From: a bacterium | GTDB taxonomy: Bacteria; JACRDZ01; JAJRWM01 | Direction of reading: 5' to 3' | Length of the DNA stretch: 12,329 bases | Assembly (NCBI GenBank): GCA_024276815.1 | Contig: JAJRWM010000224.1 | Location: 1-12,329 of the forward strand | Shown here: positions 6,037-12,329 of the stretch, one piece after another | Position numbering within the stretch: position 1 is the stretch's first letter | Layout: each line of letters begins with the position of its first letter | The notes under the pieces: generated by a model | Seen by the model: the letters and a program-made list of their open reading frames with translations, nothing else | Told to the model about the DNA's origin: nothing | The model's database searches: none | Position numbers and translations under genes: made by a program

Positions 6037-7182
6037 ATGTTAGAGTTTGAAAATGAATTTGGCCAGTCCGCTAAAATCAAGGTGGTTGGCGTAGGCGGGG
6101 GAGGCAGTAACGCCGTTGATCGCATGATTAACTCACAGTTGAGTGGCGTGGAGTTTATCGCGGTGAATACGGACGCGCAAGCTTTAAAAGGTTCCAGTTC
6201 CCCCTGCAAACTGCAAATCGGCACTGATATGACCAGGGGCTTGGGCTCCGGTTCCAATCCGCAGGTCGGAATGGAAGCCGCCATGGCCGACCGGGATCGG
6301 ATCAAGGAGTCTTTGGCCGGCTCGGATATGGTGTTTATCACGGCCGGAATGGGTGGCGGCACCGGTACCGGTGCCGCCCCGGTGATTGCCGAGATCGCGA
6401 AGGAACTCGATGTTTTAACGGTTGGAGTGGTGACCAAGCCCTTTTTGTTAGAGGGAGCCAGGCGTTCTTTGCAGGCGGAGGACGGGTTAAATAAACTTTG
6501 CAAAAGCGTCGATTCCCTGATTATTATACCTAACCAGCGTCTTTTGGCCGTTGTGGGTAAAAAAACCTCGTTGCTGGACGCTTTCAAAGTCGCGTACGAG
6601 GTTCTGCTTAACGCTGTCCAGGGGATTAGCGACTTGATTACCAAGCCGGGCCTGATCAATCTTGATTTCGCCGATGTCAGGACCGTGATGGCGGAAATGG
6701 GCGGCGCTTTGATGGGAACGGGTCAAGGCAGCGGCGAAGACCGCGCGATCAAAGCCGCGCATGGCGCTATCTCAAGCCCCTTGCTGGAAGAGACCTCCAT
6801 TGAGGGCGCCAGGGGTATACTTATCAACATCAGCGGCGGACCCGATCTGACTCTGTATGAGGTTGACGAGGCTATTTCGATTATCCACGAGTCGGCGGCG
6901 GACAGCGCTCATATTATTTTTGGCGCGGTTATCAACGAGGGAATTGAAGGCCTGCTCAAGGTGACGGTCATCGCCACCGGTTTTGAGGATCAAAAACGGG
7001 GCCGGGGCAAGAAAAACAATATTACCAAGCTGGATGAATACTCCAAGGCTTTTGACCGCCCGGCGTTTCAGAGAAAAGAGGGCGTGTTGACTCCAAATAT
7101 TGAAGGGATAGAAGAAAGGTTAGAAGGGTTTAGCGACAACGAACTGGATGTGCCAACATTCCTGCGTCGTCAAATGGACTGA
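6037..7182 (+). CDS. ftsZ: Cell division protein FtsZ
   Basis: Tubulin-like GTPase that polymerises into the Z ring. The 381-residue product shows VVGVGGGGSNAVDRMI (16-31), VNTDAQAL (43-50), the tubulin signature GMGGGTGTGAAP (104-115), KPFLLEGARR (134-143), and the T7 synergy loop NLDFADVRTVM (208-218) with its catalytic aspartates D210 and D213. A linker of roughly 50 residues follows, then the conserved C-terminal peptide LDVPTFLRRQMD, which binds FtsA. The segment IPNQRLLAVV has Q167 where most FtsZ proteins have aspartate (IPND); this is the one departure I see. It is preceded by a strong ribosome site and followed 14 bases later by the cytochrome b-ferredoxin gene, with only a short T-rich spacer between. 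Confidence 0.98.
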   Translation: MLEFENEFGQSAKIKVVGVGGGGSNAVDRMINSQLSGVEFIAVNTDAQALKGSSSPCKLQIGTDMTRGLGSGSNPQVGMEAAMADRDRIKESLAGSDMVFITAGMGGGTGTGAAPVIAEIAKELDVLTVGVVTKPFLLEGARRSLQAEDGLNKLCKSVDSLIIIPNQRLLAVVGKKTSLLDAFKVAYEVLLNAVQGISDLITKPGLINLDFADVRTVMAEMGGALMGTGQGSGEDRAIKAAHGAISSPLLEETSIEGARGILINISGGPDLTLYEVDEAISIIHESAADSAHIIFGAVINEGIEGLLKVTVIATGFEDQKRGRGKKNNITKLDEYSKAFDRPAFQRKEGVLTPNIEGIEERLEGFSDNELDVPTFLRRQMD

Positions 7183-7196
7183 CTTTTTTGTTTTAG

Positions 7197-8528
7197 ATGA
7201 ACATTCGAAACCGCAATCTGCACATGCTCTTTTTTACCAGTATGATTATTCTGTTGATTACTGGTTTCGCGGTATATTTTCCGCACAGTTGGGTTGAATA
7301 CCTAGGCAGCTATTCACAGATAATCTTTGAATACCGAACCCTGATTCACCGTATTGCCGCGTTGGTGTTTATCTTCACCGCGACTCACCACTTAATCTAT
7401 ATCATCAAGGCCAGAGAGGGACGCGCGCTGTTCCATGATCTGTTGCCGAAATGGCGCGATGTTCTCGGGCCGGTCAATCATCTGCTCAAGCTGGCGGGAA
7501 TTAATGACCCGCGGCCGGCCGCTAATTTTGAATATCATGAGAAACTGGAATACTGGCTGACCTTTATCGGAACGGTCCTGATTATCATCACCGGAGTCAT
7601 TCTCTGGCTCGAGGACTATTTCAGCAATCTGGAACTGGATATCTCTTTGGTTATTCATTTCTATGCCGGTTTATTGGCCTTGCTGGGTATGGTCGTCTGG
7701 AATTTTACCAACCTTCATCCTGAGTTTTATTTTTACCGTAAAGAAGAGGAACTGCCCTGTAGCCGGGAAGAGTGCGTTCAGTGTGACGCCTGCCTGGAGC
7801 AAAAAGATGCCCGGCCTCATGCCTGGACTTATTGTCTGGCGGATAACTCTGAACGGGCCAGAGCTTTTCTTAAGCGGGGCGTGGCGACCTGCGCCGAGGC
7901 TCAGTTGCTGATCACTGACGGCAGTTGTCAGCATTCCTGCCTGGAGTTGGCTACTTGCGCGTCAGTATGTCTGTACGGCTCCCGGATTATGAATGATGAG
8001 GGCTTGCTGGAACTGGAGAACGATAATTGCGTGGGCTGCGGTATGTGCGCGCGCGAATGTCCCACCCGGGTGATCTCTATGATGCCCAGGACTTTTTTCA
8101 TCCATATCATGTGTCACTCCCAGTTGCCGAAGTTTACCGCCTCGCTGAAATGTCCCACCCAGTGCCGCCGCTGCATGATGTGCCAGAAACGTTGTCCTAA
8201 AGAAGCGATTTCCTTTAACGGTCACCTGCCGGTTATTGATTACCGCAAATGTATTTCCTGCGGGCTGTGCGTCTCTAAGTGCCCGGTTAACATCATTACC
8301 GACGATCTCTATCAAAAGCGTCTCCCGGCTGAGATTTCAGAAGGTTGTAAGGGGTGCGGGTTGTGCCTCAGGGTTTGCCCGGTTGACGCGATCTCCGGTT
8401 ATCCCAAGGAGCGGCACGTGGTTGATCCCCAAAAATGTATCGCCTGCGGGTTATGTGTCCGTACCTGCAAGCAAAGCGCTGTTCGACTGGCCTGGATCGA
8501 CGAGTTGGTTGAGTTGGTCGCGAAATGA
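7197..8528 (+). CDS. Cytochrome b-like membrane domain fused to RnfB-like polyferredoxin
   Basis: 443 residues. Residues 1-180 are a four-helix membrane domain like cytochrome b561 or the formate dehydrogenase gamma subunit: helices about 10-28, 48-70, 118-138 and 150-170, with candidate heme histidines H9, H51, H64/H65, H154 and H174, and a characteristic EKLEYWLTFIGT and WNFTNLHPEF. A cysteine-rich linker follows (C188, C193, C196, C199, C213, C232). Then comes CX3CX5CX3C at 244-258 and CX2CX2CX3CP at 278, 323, 352, 384 and 414 (first cysteine of each; the last lacks the proline). The 244-258 pattern, the following cluster, the lone C306 and C319, and the next two clusters match the order in RnfB, the electron-entry subunit of Rnf complexes. 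The likely role is membrane electron transfer between ferredoxin-type carriers and heme or quinone; this is inference. No Rnf partner gene is visible. ATG 7197 lacks a Shine-Dalgarno. Confidence 0.8.
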   Translation: MNIRNRNLHMLFFTSMIILLITGFAVYFPHSWVEYLGSYSQIIFEYRTLIHRIAALVFIFTATHHLIYIIKAREGRALFHDLLPKWRDVLGPVNHLLKLAGINDPRPAANFEYHEKLEYWLTFIGTVLIIITGVILWLEDYFSNLELDISLVIHFYAGLLALLGMVVWNFTNLHPEFYFYRKEEELPCSREECVQCDACLEQKDARPHAWTYCLADNSERARAFLKRGVATCAEAQLLITDGSCQHSCLELATCASVCLYGSRIMNDEGLLELENDNCVGCGMCARECPTRVISMMPRTFFIHIMCHSQLPKFTASLKCPTQCRRCMMCQKRCPKEAISFNGHLPVIDYRKCISCGLCVSKCPVNIITDDLYQKRLPAEISEGCKGCGLCLRVCPVDAISGYPKERHVVDPQKCIACGLCVRTCKQSAVRLAWIDELVELVAK

Positions 8529-8567: not shown

Positions 8568-9320
8568 ATGAAAAACTTCTTGCTCCGATTAAGTTATGAC
8601 GGTACCCGGTTTCACGGCTGGCAGTTCCAGAAGACCGGCGAGCGTTCGGTTGAAGGGGTTCTACTTGGAGCGTGGGAGAAAATCTCCAAGGGCGAAAAGA
8701 TCAAGCTGATTTGTTCGGGGCGGACTGACAAAGGAGTCCACGCTTACCAGCAGGCCGCCAACTTTGTCACGGGCAAGGATATTGACCCGGGCGGCATCAG
8801 AAGAGCGTTTAACTCCCTTTTACCCAAAGATGTGATGATCAACGCCGTGGAGCCGGTGGTCGCTGATTTTCACGCCCGTTACGACGCCAAAGAACGGTCC
8901 TATCTATACCTGCTGAGCAAGCAATATTCAATCTTCAATCGTTTTTATTCCTATTATTATAATCGGCGGCTTGAGGTGGCGAAAATGCGGGAAGCTTCGC
9001 TCTTCCTGGTGGGTGAACACGATTTCTCCGCCTTCAGGGCCAGCGGTTGTTTTTCCCCGACCCCGGTCAGAAATATCAAAGCGATAACGATTGAGGAAGA
9101 CGACTCGTTTATTCGCTGCCGGTTTACGGCCAACGCTTTTCTTTTCCGCATGATAAGGATTATCGTGGGCACCCTGATTGATGTCGGCTCCGCCCGTTTG
9201 GCGCCCATTGACGTGAAGAACATCCTGGCGGGCAAAGACCGTGCCAAGGCCGGCAAGACCGCTCCTCCCCACGGTTTATACCTGGAGAAGATTAAATATG
9301 ATGAAAGTCTTTTCCTCTAA
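8568..9320 (+). CDS. truA: tRNA pseudouridine(38-40) synthase TruA
   Basis: Cytoplasmic enzyme that isomerises uridines 38-40 in the tRNA anticodon arm. The 250-residue product shows the N-terminal LSYDGTRFHGWQFQ (8-21), the catalytic block SGRTDKGVHAY (50-60) with nucleophilic D54, RSYLYLLSKQ, GEHDFSAFRASGC and the C-terminal FLFRMIRIIVGTLIDVGSARL, all expected for TruA at normal length. It starts 39 bases after the cytochrome b-ferredoxin gene, without a clear Shine-Dalgarno, and is probably the last gene of the + strand operon. Its TAA stop (9318-9320) overlaps the stop of the opposing SGNH hydrolase gene. Confidence 0.96.
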   Translation: MKNFLLRLSYDGTRFHGWQFQKTGERSVEGVLLGAWEKISKGEKIKLICSGRTDKGVHAYQQAANFVTGKDIDPGGIRRAFNSLLPKDVMINAVEPVVADFHARYDAKERSYLYLLSKQYSIFNRFYSYYYNRRLEVAKMREASLFLVGEHDFSAFRASGCFSPTPVRNIKAITIEEDDSFIRCRFTANAFLFRMIRIIVGTLIDVGSARLAPIDVKNILAGKDRAKAGKTAPPHGLYLEKIKYDESLFL

Positions 9321-9326
9321 TCTTCT
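9286..9326. repeat. Inverted repeat across the convergent gene ends; possible bidirectional terminator
   Basis: AGAAGATTA at 9286-9294 is perfectly repeated in reverse complement at 9318-9326 (TAATCTTCT), with a 23-base loop that holds a weak inner pairing (GAAAG against CTTTTC). It spans the overlapping stops of truA and the opposing gene, where a bidirectional terminator would be expected. The stem is AT-rich and no uridine run follows directly, so intrinsic termination is only possible. Confidence 0.35.
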
Positions 9327-10339
9327 GTGGCAACGAAATCAGGTTGTTTTTCTTTAAGCCATTGATAGATTTCACGAGCGATCAGTTGGTGACCAAGCGA
9401 ATTAAAATGGCCATAGTCGTTTTTGAGATTATAAAGCTCTTCTAACGAATGTTTTTTAAATTGGGGGAGGATATCAATGGTTGGGAAACCGGCTTTGATC
9501 AATTCTTGTGAGATAACAATTTGTTGGTAGTTGTTGGATTCTAAAATCTGTTTGCCAAGCGGTAGGATAACAATTAAAACCTCGCAGTTTGCTTTGATTT
9601 TTATTGATTGGTAATATTTGATTAGCAAATAATTGACAGCTTTACTTAACGTTGCGGGCGGTAAATCATAAAGAAGGGTTAAGTCTCTGTAAATTTTATG
9701 TGGCCAGAACTTTTCTTTAAGGAGTTCAACTCTGGATAGAACAACTTTTAAGAGATAGGAATTATCAATCAGATAATCGTAAAAGGTAGGTTTTCCTTCC
9801 AACTCCATAGGATTGTCTTTGTCGTATATATAACCCCGGCTGTCGCAGAACTTGGTTTGGCTTAAGTCATTCATGACTAAGCCAATTATTACCAGGTCCG
9901 GCTGGTATTTATAACCTTCATACTGGAAGAAACGCATTTCTTGCCAAGCAGTGAATCCCGACACGCCAGCGTTTACAACTTCAGCCCCTGATAATAGTTG
10001 CTCCAGTTGTTTTGGATAAGTATTTTCGGATTTTACACCAAGTCCAAAAGTATATGAATCTCCCAATACTAAAATACGTTTTTTCCTTTTGGGTTCTTTT
10101 TGATAAGTGCGTTGTTCACGTAAGCCATCTTCATTGGTAAATACCGGTACACCAAAAGAATCAGCAATCTTGAGGTTTGGTTTTAGGCCATAGTAGTAAA
10201 ATGGATTCGCTAAGTAGAGTGTATCGCCAGCAACGGGTTTAATACTAAAAAGTCTAAATGCACCTTCAGCAAATAACAAAGCGAAAAATATACTAACTAC
10301 TACCAATATCAAGTTAAGTGTACTGTTTTTCCATTCCAT
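9317..10339 (-). CDS. Membrane-anchored SGNH/GDSL-family hydrolase
   Basis: 340 residues. One N-terminal hydrophobic helix (about 8-26, LNLILVVVSIFFALLFAEG) acts as an anchor or uncleaved signal, placing the rest outside the cytoplasm. The SGNH blocks are clear: block I VLGDSYTFGLGV with nucleophile S95, block II NAGVSGF (oxyanion glycine G125), block III GLVMND (N157) and block V NDYGHFNSLGH with D308 and H311 as catalytic acid and base. Such anchored SGNH proteins often add or remove acyl groups on cell-surface polysaccharides; the substrate here is unknown. Base composition differs sharply from neighbours: 9421-9480 is 19/60 G+C, against 37/60 at 7861-7920. ATG 10339 has a strong ribosome site. 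The stop (TAG on this strand, 9317-9319) overlaps that of truA. Confidence 0.88.
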   Translation of the reverse strand: MEWKNSTLNLILVVVSIFFALLFAEGAFRLFSIKPVAGDTLYLANPFYYYGLKPNLKIADSFGVPVFTNEDGLREQRTYQKEPKRKKRILVLGDSYTFGLGVKSENTYPKQLEQLLSGAEVVNAGVSGFTAWQEMRFFQYEGYKYQPDLVIIGLVMNDLSQTKFCDSRGYIYDKDNPMELEGKPTFYDYLIDNSYLLKVVLSRVELLKEKFWPHKIYRDLTLLYDLPPATLSKAVNYLLIKYYQSIKIKANCEVLIVILPLGKQILESNNYQQIVISQELIKAGFPTIDILPQFKKHSLEELYNLKNDYGHFNSLGHQLIAREIYQWLKEKQPDFVATED

Positions 10340-10399: not shown

Positions 10400-10702
10400 T
10401 TATTCCGTTTGTTTACCGTTTCTTTCGCTGAAGATCCGTTCCCAACACGCGATATCTTCCTTGCTTGCTGACCGGGGGTTTTCCAGGCCGAGTTCGTCAG
10501 AGGGGTCGAAACCTTCGTTAGCGATTATGGCCCGTGGACAGCGGCTTTCAATGGCGGCGAGAATCTCCCCGATATCAAGATGGCCGTCTGCCAGTGCTGT
10601 ATGGGGAATCTCAGCGGTCGTGTTACTCAGGTGAAAGTGACTGACCTTGTCAATTTCACCAAGTGATTTAAGTGGCTTACTGAAACGACCAGCGTGAACG
10701 GC
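10400..10702 (-). pseudogene. 3' remnant of a TIM-barrel protein, sugar phosphate isomerase/epimerase type
   Basis: An open stretch of 100 codons ending in TAA (10400-10402) with no ATG, GTG or TTG in frame; upstream it runs into TGA at 10703-10705. It reads VHAGRFSKPLKSL, IDKVSHFHLSNTT, HTALADGHLDIGEILAAI and RAIIANEGF. This is the C-terminal pattern of the xylose isomerase-like (AP endonuclease 2) TIM-barrel family: a GHA-like histidine, a metal-site HxH/HLxN strand, an H..L.DG.(I/L)D loop and a final barrel strand with a glutamate. Roughly the N-terminal two-thirds of a barrel is absent. The fragment abuts, in a different frame, the C-terminus of the Calx-beta protein, so it looks like what was left after a deletion or insertion. 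Its G+C is like the core genes, unlike the adjacent SGNH gene. Family assignment is by motif reading only. Confidence 0.6.
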
Positions 10703-12329
10703 TCACGCCTGACGTCGCCGCCGGCTCGTTGTCTTGGTTCACCACGACAATGTCAGTGCCATCCAGACCCTGATAGTTTGGATCGGCCGAAACCGCCGGG
10801 GAGAGCTTAATCAGGTAAAGCTGGTCACCGTCAGCGATCTCATCATCGACAACCGTGACCGTGACCTCCCTCGCCACATCCCAGTCCGCCTGGGTGAAGG
10901 TCAGCAGAGAAGGAGAGACAACTCCTTCGCTCTCGTCTGAACTGGAGACGGCTATCATGACCCCGGAGACCGGCTCGCTCAACAACTTAACCGTGAAAAC
11001 TACCGGGGTGCCGCCTTCCACCGTCGTGATTCTGTTTAAGCTTACGAAAATGCCGGGGGAGTCATTGTCAGTATTGGTCAACACAACATCATTCGGATCG
11101 AGTTCATGATAGCTGGTGTCATTCGAAATCGCCGGCCATAAGTTTACCGTGTAATTCTGGTTGCCGTCGGCGATATTATCGTCAACGCCGGTCACCGTCA
11201 CGACCTGATCGGTGTTCCAGTCAAAGCTGGTGAAAGTCAGGGCGATCTTGTCCAGCGTTCCCTCGGTAAGGTCTGAGCAGCTTAGAATGATATCGACATT
11301 GTCCAGCGGTTCACTGTTAAGGCTGACCCTGAAGGTAAATGAATCCCCGTCTTCGGTCGTGGTCCCGGCGGCCGGCGTGACGTTAATCCTCGCCAGGTCG
11401 CCAAAGTCGAGATTAATGACCGGCACATCATCCGGGTCTAAGCCGTTATAAACAGGATCAGTGGAATTTGCCGCAGAAAGTTCGATCAGATACCCCTGGT
11501 CGCCGTCGGCGATATTATCGTCAACGCCGGTCACCGTCACGACCTGATCGGCGTTCCAGTTAAAGCCGGTGAAGGTCAGGCTCGGTTTGTCTGTTACGCC
11601 TTCGCTCTCGTCGGAACTGGCCACGGCGATTACGACCTCGGCCAGGGGTTCGCTGGTAAGGCGCACCGTAAATGTAGCGGTTGCACCGGCTTCACTGCTG
11701 TCGCCGCTGATAGCGCTGATGTTAAATCCGGGAGTCTCGCCAAAGTCGAGATTGACAACCGGCACGTCGTCCGGATCGAGTCCGTTATAAGCCGGATCGA
11801 CCGAGACCGCCGGCGAAAGTTCGATCAGATAGCTTTGATTCCCGTCGGCGATATCATCGTCAACGCCGGTCACTGTCACGACCTGGTCGGCGTTCCAGTT
11901 AAGGCTGGTGAAGGTCAGGCTCGGTTTGTCTGTTACGCCTTCGCTTCCGTTCGAACTGGTTACGGCTATTACGACCTCGGCTGTCGGCTGACTGTTAAGC
12001 TTAACCGAAAAGGTCGCGCTGCCGCCCACCGCTTCAGAGGTGTTTCCGCTAATGGCGCTGACGATAAAGCCCGGTGAGCGGATAGTAACCGTTCGGCTCT
12101 TGGACCAGCCGGAAACGATATCGGGATGAAGCCGGCAGCGGGAGCGGGCTTTGACGCTGTAAACGCCGGGCGCGTTCCACACCTTGCTCCAGTTTGAGCC
12201 GTCAGCCCGCCAGCCGGAGGTCGTGCCGTCGCCCCAGTCGAATTGATATTCCAGAGCGTCGCCGGAACTGGCGGTCGAGCCGGAGGCGGAATAATTGTAA
12301 GCGGTAGCGGTAGTCCCGGTAGTCGGGCC
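10677..12329 (-). CDS. Large surface/secreted protein with PKD-like and four Calx-beta-like domains; 5' end outside window
   Basis: The frame is open from the window edge to TAA at 10677-10679, giving 550 visible residues; an internal GTG near 12182 is not the start. The first part is a PKD-like Ig domain: SASGSTASSGDALEYQFDWG, DGTTSGW, NAPGVYSVKARSRC and a closing RTVTI. Then come four tandem Calx-beta-like repeats, each with a TFxVxLxSEP strand, SSxxSEGV, LTFT, W(N/D), VTVTGVDD, IADG, LxP and a closing Asx-rich turn. These are usually calcium-stabilised extracellular beta sandwiches for adhesion or spacing. After DNEP at 10722 the family pattern stops, and 14 unrelated residues (AATSGVSRSRWSFQ) lead to the stop over the TIM-barrel remnant. 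The C-terminus may therefore be truncated by rearrangement: no sorting signal, anchor or type-IX-like tail is visible. The ligand is unknown. Confidence 0.8.
   Translation of the reverse strand, partial: GPTTGTTATAYNYSASGSTASSGDALEYQFDWGDGTTSGWRADGSNWSKVWNAPGVYSVKARSRCRLHPDIVSGWSKSRTVTIRSPGFIVSAISGNTSEAVGGSATFSVKLNSQPTAEVVIAVTSSNGSEGVTDKPSLTFTSLNWNADQVVTVTGVDDDIADGNQSYLIELSPAVSVDPAYNGLDPDDVPVVNLDFGETPGFNISAISGDSSEAGATATFTVRLTSEPLAEVVIAVASSDESEGVTDKPSLTFTGFNWNADQVVTVTGVDDNIADGDQGYLIELSAANSTDPVYNGLDPDDVPVINLDFGDLARINVTPAAGTTTEDGDSFTFRVSLNSEPLDNVDIILSCSDLTEGTLDKIALTFTSFDWNTDQVVTVTGVDDNIADGNQNYTVNLWPAISNDTSYHELDPNDVVLTNTDNDSPGIFVSLNRITTVEGGTPVVFTVKLLSEPVSGVMIAVSSSDESEGVVSPSLLTFTQADWDVAREVTVTVVDDEIADGDQLYLIKLSPAVSADPNYQGLDGTDIVVVNQDNEPAATSGVSRSRWSFQ
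10692..10708. repeat. Small palindrome at the Calx-beta/TIM-barrel junction
   Basis: GCGTGA (10692-10697) and TCACGC (10703-10708) form a perfect 6-bp inverted repeat with a 5-base loop. It lies where the Calx-beta repeats have ended (10722) and the recognisable TIM-barrel frame begins (about 10702). It may mark the recombination point or be chance. Confidence 0.4.
10722..12068 (-). repeat. Four tandem Calx-beta-like coding repeats (112-114 codons each)
   Basis: Approximate units in gene order: 12068-11727, 11726-11388, 11387-11052 and 11051-10722. The segment coding VTVTGVDD(N/D)IADG recurs at 11841, 11502 and 11163 (339-base steps) with nearly identical DNA, and at 10827 (336 bases on) in a more diverged form. 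The first three units are close at DNA level, which suggests recent duplication or gene conversion; the fourth (3'-most) is the most diverged. Confidence 0.85.

Follow-up and report, generated by a model that had tools for sequence, protein, structure and literature searches.

In anaerobes, the routes by which electrons of ferredoxin reach quinones outside Rnf and complex I are poorly defined, and the enzymes proposed for them mostly consist of several subunits. In the FdnH-FdnI system electrons pass from a polyferredoxin to a b-type cytochrome, the heme ligands of which are H18, H57, H155 and H169; polyferredoxin and cytochrome are different polypeptides here, the former on the periplasmic side. 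The CbcL-type inner-membrane cytochromes (Geobacter CbcL and CbcL-like proteins) carry a periplasmic multiheme c domain at the N-terminus of their b domain. In RnfB from Clostridium tetanomorphum the structure revealed one cluster whose ligands are two cysteines from the RnfC-interface segment and two from the linker between FdII and FdIII (PMC9588780). In RnfB from Acetobacterium woodii seven clusters belong to the C-terminal part, and the mobile B8/FdI domain holds one more; the C-terminal domain is the ferredoxin acceptor in Rnf (PMC11889175). In Angelarchaeales an rnfB-like gene is found beside a cytochrome b complex (PMC9038741); there, as in ANME, electrons of ferredoxin have been proposed from genomes to reach a heme/quinone system via parts of Rnf (PMC9038741; PMC9012536).

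The window, i.e., the whole stretch of DNA analyzed (12,329 nucleotides, the entire contig), harbors a gene that expresses the same idea in one chain rather than in separate archaeal genes. The gene and its neighbors are:

7197 to 8528, plus strand: cytochrome b-RnfB polyferredoxin fusion gene (443 amino acids, ATG start, TGA stop)
6037 to 7182, plus strand: ftsZ, the upstream neighbor (PF00091 and PF12327)
8568 to 9320, plus strand: truA, the downstream neighbor (PF01416)

The fusion gene starts 14 bases after the ftsZ stop codon (which ends at 7182) and is followed by truA; open reading frame, gap, neighbors and the listed cysteine motifs, including the single C306 and C319, are all present as described in an initial annotation made from the DNA. 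An in-frame stop immediately 5′ of the ATG means that translation cannot start further upstream. A clear Shine-Dalgarno sequence was found neither 5′ of the gene nor 5′ of its orthologues. The GC content by codon position (0.52/0.40/0.61) resembles that of ftsA, ftsZ and truA. The gene is real, having a coding pattern like its neighbors and orthologues that are under strong purifying selection.

Elsewhere in the window a murG-like frame (1 to 732), otherwise continuous, is broken by an in-frame TAA at 271 to 273, which is either a genuine interruption or an error in the sequence; in truA the TAA codon serves as the usual stop. Convergent with truA on the minus strand (9317 to 10339) lies a gene for a membrane-anchored SGNH/GDSL hydrolase-like protein, and a gene for a Calx-beta repeat protein (10677 to 12329, minus strand) runs off the end of the contig. 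The genome copy containing the window (G000) is in 246 contigs.

Full-length fusions were found in 3 of 386 genomes, all from the same small phylum, of which four genomes were examined. The two orthologues, from G001 and G003, belong to another family than the window; these full-length orthologues have identities of 37–39%. Outside the phylum none of 382 genomes had a full-length fusion among its best four candidates, the matches there being to standard RnfB or to b-domain proteins; one candidate, in G199, turned out to be a long RnfB of the ordinary kind. Further small searches around other genomes gave no additional fusions, a scan of GTDB contigs of close relatives gave partial relatives only, and searches of open-access papers turned up no description of such a fusion. 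In G002 (78% complete) other genes follow ftsZ, and the fusion was not found.

The initial annotation had asked whether the same fusion follows ftsZ in other genomes and had called this place unusual for a redox gene. In G001 and G003 the gene indeed lies downstream of ftsZ, separated from it by a TIGR03960-like radical SAM gene (in G001 also by two further open reading frames) and followed by murJ. In two families the gene has thus stayed near ftsZ, but it does not always directly adjoin ftsZ and truA. Between G001 and G003 the fusion has a dN of 0.089 and a dS of 1.55, which is near ftsZ (0.093 and 2.14). In the b-domain tree the three fusions group in one clade (support 99/99). The tree of the Fe-S halves is poorly resolved, a single fusion clade not being rejected (p-AU 0.43); the window copy has a branch of 3.17 in this tree, while its b-domain branch is not long. 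From the b-domain clade, the AU test and the dN and dS values near those of ftsZ we conclude that a single fusion event probably gave rise to the gene, which is under selection. The full-length orthologues, the retention of all cysteines and the low dN/dS rule out that two genes were joined by chance or by misassembly. An origin from the genome's own RnfB is unsupported, as that protein lacks the two C-terminal clusters, although the Fe-S tree cannot place the fusions.

The N-terminal half is a cytochrome b with the following features:

7197 to 7730, plus strand: four-helix b-type cytochrome domain of the formate dehydrogenase gamma/CbcL type, residues 1–178 (PF01292, TIGR01583, 1kqf_C)
7221 to 7223, plus strand: His9 in helix I, family-invariant (14/14 aligned sequences)
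7347 to 7349, plus strand: His51 in helix II, family-invariant (14/14)
7389 to 7391, plus strand: His65 in helix II, family-invariant (14/14)
7656 to 7658, plus strand: His154 in helix IV, family-invariant (14/14)
7701 to 7703, plus strand: Asn169, where 13/13 aligned relatives have a second helix IV histidine

Pfam Ni_hydr_CYTB (PF01292) matches residues 5–168 of the window protein with 35.1 bits (cut-off 30.1); the orthologues score 22.7 and 20.7, under this gathering cut-off. TIGR01583 (formate dehydrogenase gamma) matches residues 1–178, but under the cut-off of the model. A family profile built from 14 relatives finds FdnI of Escherichia coli (1kqf_C) with an E of 8.6e-14, the hydrogenase-1 cytochrome with 0.0018 and cytochrome b6 weakly with 0.35. 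Helices are predicted at 3–27, 47–71, 113–137 and 149–173 from a weak structure model. AlphaFold models of the fusion had pLDDT values of 46 and 55, too weak to use, also for modelling a quinone site; in fold searches with the weak model FdnI came first in Foldseek (E 0.027) and was tied with ion-channel helix bundles in VIA-align (Z 10.0). Basic residues are seen in the N-terminus and in the long loop between helices II and III, a placement which predicts that both termini are cytoplasmic.

Of the heme histidines suggested in the initial annotation, H9, H51, H65 and H154 are family-invariant; H64 is not, and the invariance of H174 is limited to the three fusions. The spacing of H51/H65 and of H154/169 also recalls cytochrome b6. 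CbcL-like b domains have five conserved histidines, one above the four ligands of FdnI (alignment of window 7197 to 7767 with loci L009, L041-L064 and L099), and a helix II pattern HR-X12-H as in cytochrome b6; judging from these patterns, the heme pairing in CbcL may differ from that in FdnI.

The b domain finds its nearest relatives mostly in CbcL-like proteins, on one chain with multiheme c domains. With these proteins the fusion shares H9, H51, H65 and H154; it differs from them in having a polyferredoxin, predicted to be cytoplasmic, at its C-terminus, and Asn169. There is no CXXCH motif before the b domain, the chain starting at helix I, and the fusion, lacking c-hemes, is not a CbcL. 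The kinship with CbcL raises the question whether electrons of ferredoxin could cross both hemes to a periplasmic acceptor, e.g., a c-type cytochrome, instead of reducing a quinone. Two CbcL-like relatives are encoded in G000 itself; yet at an E of 1e-20 G001 and G003 yielded no CbcL-like b domain, so that a periplasmic acceptor shared by the three genomes is not evident. The fusion itself lacks a c-heme domain, and one of its hemes may be weakened by Asn169. We consider such a transmembrane wire quite unlikely.

One CbcL-like protein of G000 (L064:4396-6312, contig C88) is intact, has an N-terminal multiheme c and a C-terminal b domain and is followed by a second c-type cytochrome gene, which suggests quinol oxidation toward periplasmic or extracellular acceptors. 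Another gene for a CbcL-like multiheme c/b cytochrome (L065:7595-9790, contig C14) has one in-frame TAA where relatives have Glu or Asp (EKxEYW), the second such interruption in G000.

Both orthologues of the fusion keep all five family histidines, and the window protein keeps four. In cytochrome bc1 a change of a ligand from His to Asn gave a high-spin, high-potential heme without turnover (PMC8138165), and Asn169 therefore matters if it is real. Its codon is possibly a sequence error, given that in the same genome copy murG and a CbcL-like gene are each interrupted by an in-frame TAA. Together with the branch of 3.17 in the Fe-S tree, Asn169 could mean that in the window lineage the protein is decaying or has lost one heme, even though the orthologues work. 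This is highly improbable in our view: the set of 32 cysteines is complete, the other four family histidines are present, the frame of 443 codons is open with a normal GC content by codon position, the b-domain branch is not long, and the Asn itself may be an error.

The C-terminal half is an RnfB-type polyferredoxin (residues 205–431), predicted to be cytoplasmic and preceded by a cysteine-bearing linker, with these features:

7758 to 7793, plus strand: C188-X4-C193-X2-C196-X2-C199, proposed linker [4Fe-4S] cluster in place of FdI (invariant in the three fusions)
7833 to 7892, plus strand: C213 and C232 of the RnfC-interface segment, one half of the inter-segment cluster (44/44 aligned sequences)
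7926 to 8060, plus strand: FdII-like dicluster C244-C288, CX3CX5CX3C and CX2CX2CX3C (44/44; aligned to 9eri_B and 7zc6_B)
8112 to 8153, plus strand: C306 and C319 of the FdII-FdIII linker, the other half of the inter-segment cluster (44/44)
8163 to 8282, plus strand: FdIII-like dicluster C323-C362 (42–44 of 44)
8346 to 8468, plus strand: C-terminal dicluster C384-C424 as in the long-form RnfB of A. woodii, proposed ferredoxin entry (alignment to 9eri_B; PMC11889175)

Besides many Fer4 matches in Pfam, the best NCBIfam match is RnfB at residues 209–368 (E 6e-31; 107.7 of 252 bits, under the cut-off), the score on TIGR01944 is also under the cut-off (62 of 68.7), and the best PDB match is RnfB of A. 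woodii (9eri_B, residues 228–431, E 1.6e-35); RnfB of C. tetanomorphum (7zc6_B) aligns to residues 209–368 (E 1.2e-24). Taken with the Ni_hydr_CYTB match, these results bear out the chimera of cytochrome b and RnfB recognized in the initial annotation. The fusion shares with both RnfB proteins the cluster order and the inter-segment cluster (within residues 209–431), and with A. woodii RnfB also the two C-terminal clusters. The initial annotation had regarded these two clusters, which are nothing unusual, as extra and C306 and C319 as lone, whereas with C213 and C232 the latter make up the inter-segment cluster of RnfB. The conservation of these cysteines in 44/44 sequences rules out a generic ferredoxin.

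The first cysteine motif, C188/C193/C196/C199, had been overlooked. It was not found in the RnfB alignment, and we infer that it binds an eighth [4Fe-4S] cluster. The 32 cysteines, all invariant across the three fusions, fit eight [4Fe-4S] clusters, seven of which match B1-B7 of A. woodii RnfB.

PF04060, the mobile FdI, is absent from all three fusions and present in the genome's own RnfB (44–76), and instead of the single N-terminal anchor helix of RnfB there are the four hydrophobic helices of the PF01292 domain and the new four-cysteine motif. That a heme module takes the place of the membrane helix and first Fe-S domain of RnfB, as originally noted, is correct. Without FdI and single helix, under the model cut-offs and not encoded with rnfACDGE, the fusion is not an RnfB.

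A polyferredoxin feeding an FdnI-type cytochrome is also what makes FdnH-FdnI. By analogy, the fusion would work like FdnH-FdnI turned to the cytoplasm, with the input of RnfB, in one chain whose Fe-S part is predicted to be cytoplasmic.

All three fusion genomes contain rnfC above the curated cut-off, NuoH and MqnA/MqnD-family genes of futalosine menaquinone synthesis, from which it follows that the fusion comes on top of Rnf and complex I. Away from the fusion, G000 encodes rnfDGEAB, including a standard RnfB; it also has a nuo operon. In view of the rnf genes, any notion that the protein stands in for Rnf is unsupported; replacement of a missing Rnf is ruled out by rnfC. In G000 rnfC is separate from rnfDGEAB (L063:6738-10340 and L121:4101-5420); upstream of rnfD lie ABC-transporter genes in the opposite orientation, and rnfC stands after unrelated genes on another contig.

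The presence of Rnf in all fusion genomes would also allow the fusion to dock on RnfC as an alternative subunit B and to divert electrons of Rnf toward heme and quinone or draw them from there. The fusion retains C213 and C232 in their RnfC-interface segment, and a b-type cytochrome occurs in rnf clusters of ANME (PMC9012536). What is missing are FdI and the anchor helix, which contact RnfA/E; the gene is not among rnf genes, and the window copy is very diverged outside the cysteines (branch 3.17). We therefore regard an alternative subunit B as very unlikely.

The donor could also be a dedicated cytoplasmic partner (a hydrogenase, a ferredoxin-dependent oxidoreductase or a bifurcating flavoprotein) rather than free ferredoxin, with the path to menaquinone unchanged. 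Polyferredoxins often are docking wires, as are MvhB and FwdF, which rank next after RnfB among the PDB matches. Such a gene is found beside the fusion in none of the three genomes, however, and the Fe-S half is specifically that of RnfB, the known donor of which is ferredoxin; a dedicated partner thus appears unlikely. Of the donors to heme and quinone considered in the initial annotation, ferredoxin is also our best reading; input from NAD(P)H is unsupported, no flavin or nucleotide domain having been found.

Ferredoxin has a redox potential of about −0.45 V and menaquinone of about −0.08 V, and electron transfer from the one to the other is downhill. We give an even chance, on the basis of sequence comparisons, to the fusion being a single-subunit membrane ferredoxin:menaquinone oxidoreductase. 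Reduced ferredoxin would dock near the C-terminal clusters, and the electrons would move down the RnfB cluster chain to the linker cluster C188-C199, which would stand in for the mobile FdI shuttle, and from there via heme b to menaquinone. The reverse reaction would have to climb several tenths of a volt, and nothing obvious in the anatomy would let the membrane potential drive it, which argues for the direction from ferredoxin to menaquinone. With both reactants cytoplasmic the reaction would be electrically neutral; were the quinone site periplasmic, the membrane would even be discharged. Hence the protein looks like an Rnf-independent, probably non-pumping outlet for low-potential electrons.

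For a ferredoxin:menaquinone oxidoreductase speak the Fe-S half, which is that of RnfB down to the diagnostic inter-segment cysteines, the b half from the family of the quinone-linked cytochromes FdnI and CbcL, the predicted cytoplasmic termini, the invariance of all 32 cysteines, the dN and dS values, the menaquinone genes in all fusion genomes and the single clade of the b halves (99/99). Against it speak the neighbors (ftsZ, truA, radical SAM, murJ), which give no sign of ferredoxin or quinone use, Asn169 in place of the histidine of 13/13 relatives, with the bc1 precedent (PMC8138165), and the energy that a strong non-pumping outlet would waste in cells with Rnf and complex I. Somewhat more tentatively, and at less than an even chance, we propose from the sequences that a single graft of the ferredoxin-input domain of RnfB onto a cytochrome of the CbcL/FdnI type gave rise to a one-gene, Rnf-independent ferredoxin:menaquinone oxidoreductase, which a small phylum has kept in addition to Rnf and complex I as a second, non-pumping outlet for electrons of ferredoxin.

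If this is true, the whole path from ferredoxin to a membrane heme would be on a single polypeptide, providing a compact and expressible test case. It would mean that the input module of RnfB is transferable to a new electron acceptor, comparable to the exchange of RnfB for NqrF in NQR, and it would mark an uncultured phylum as a user of ferredoxin-linked respiration.
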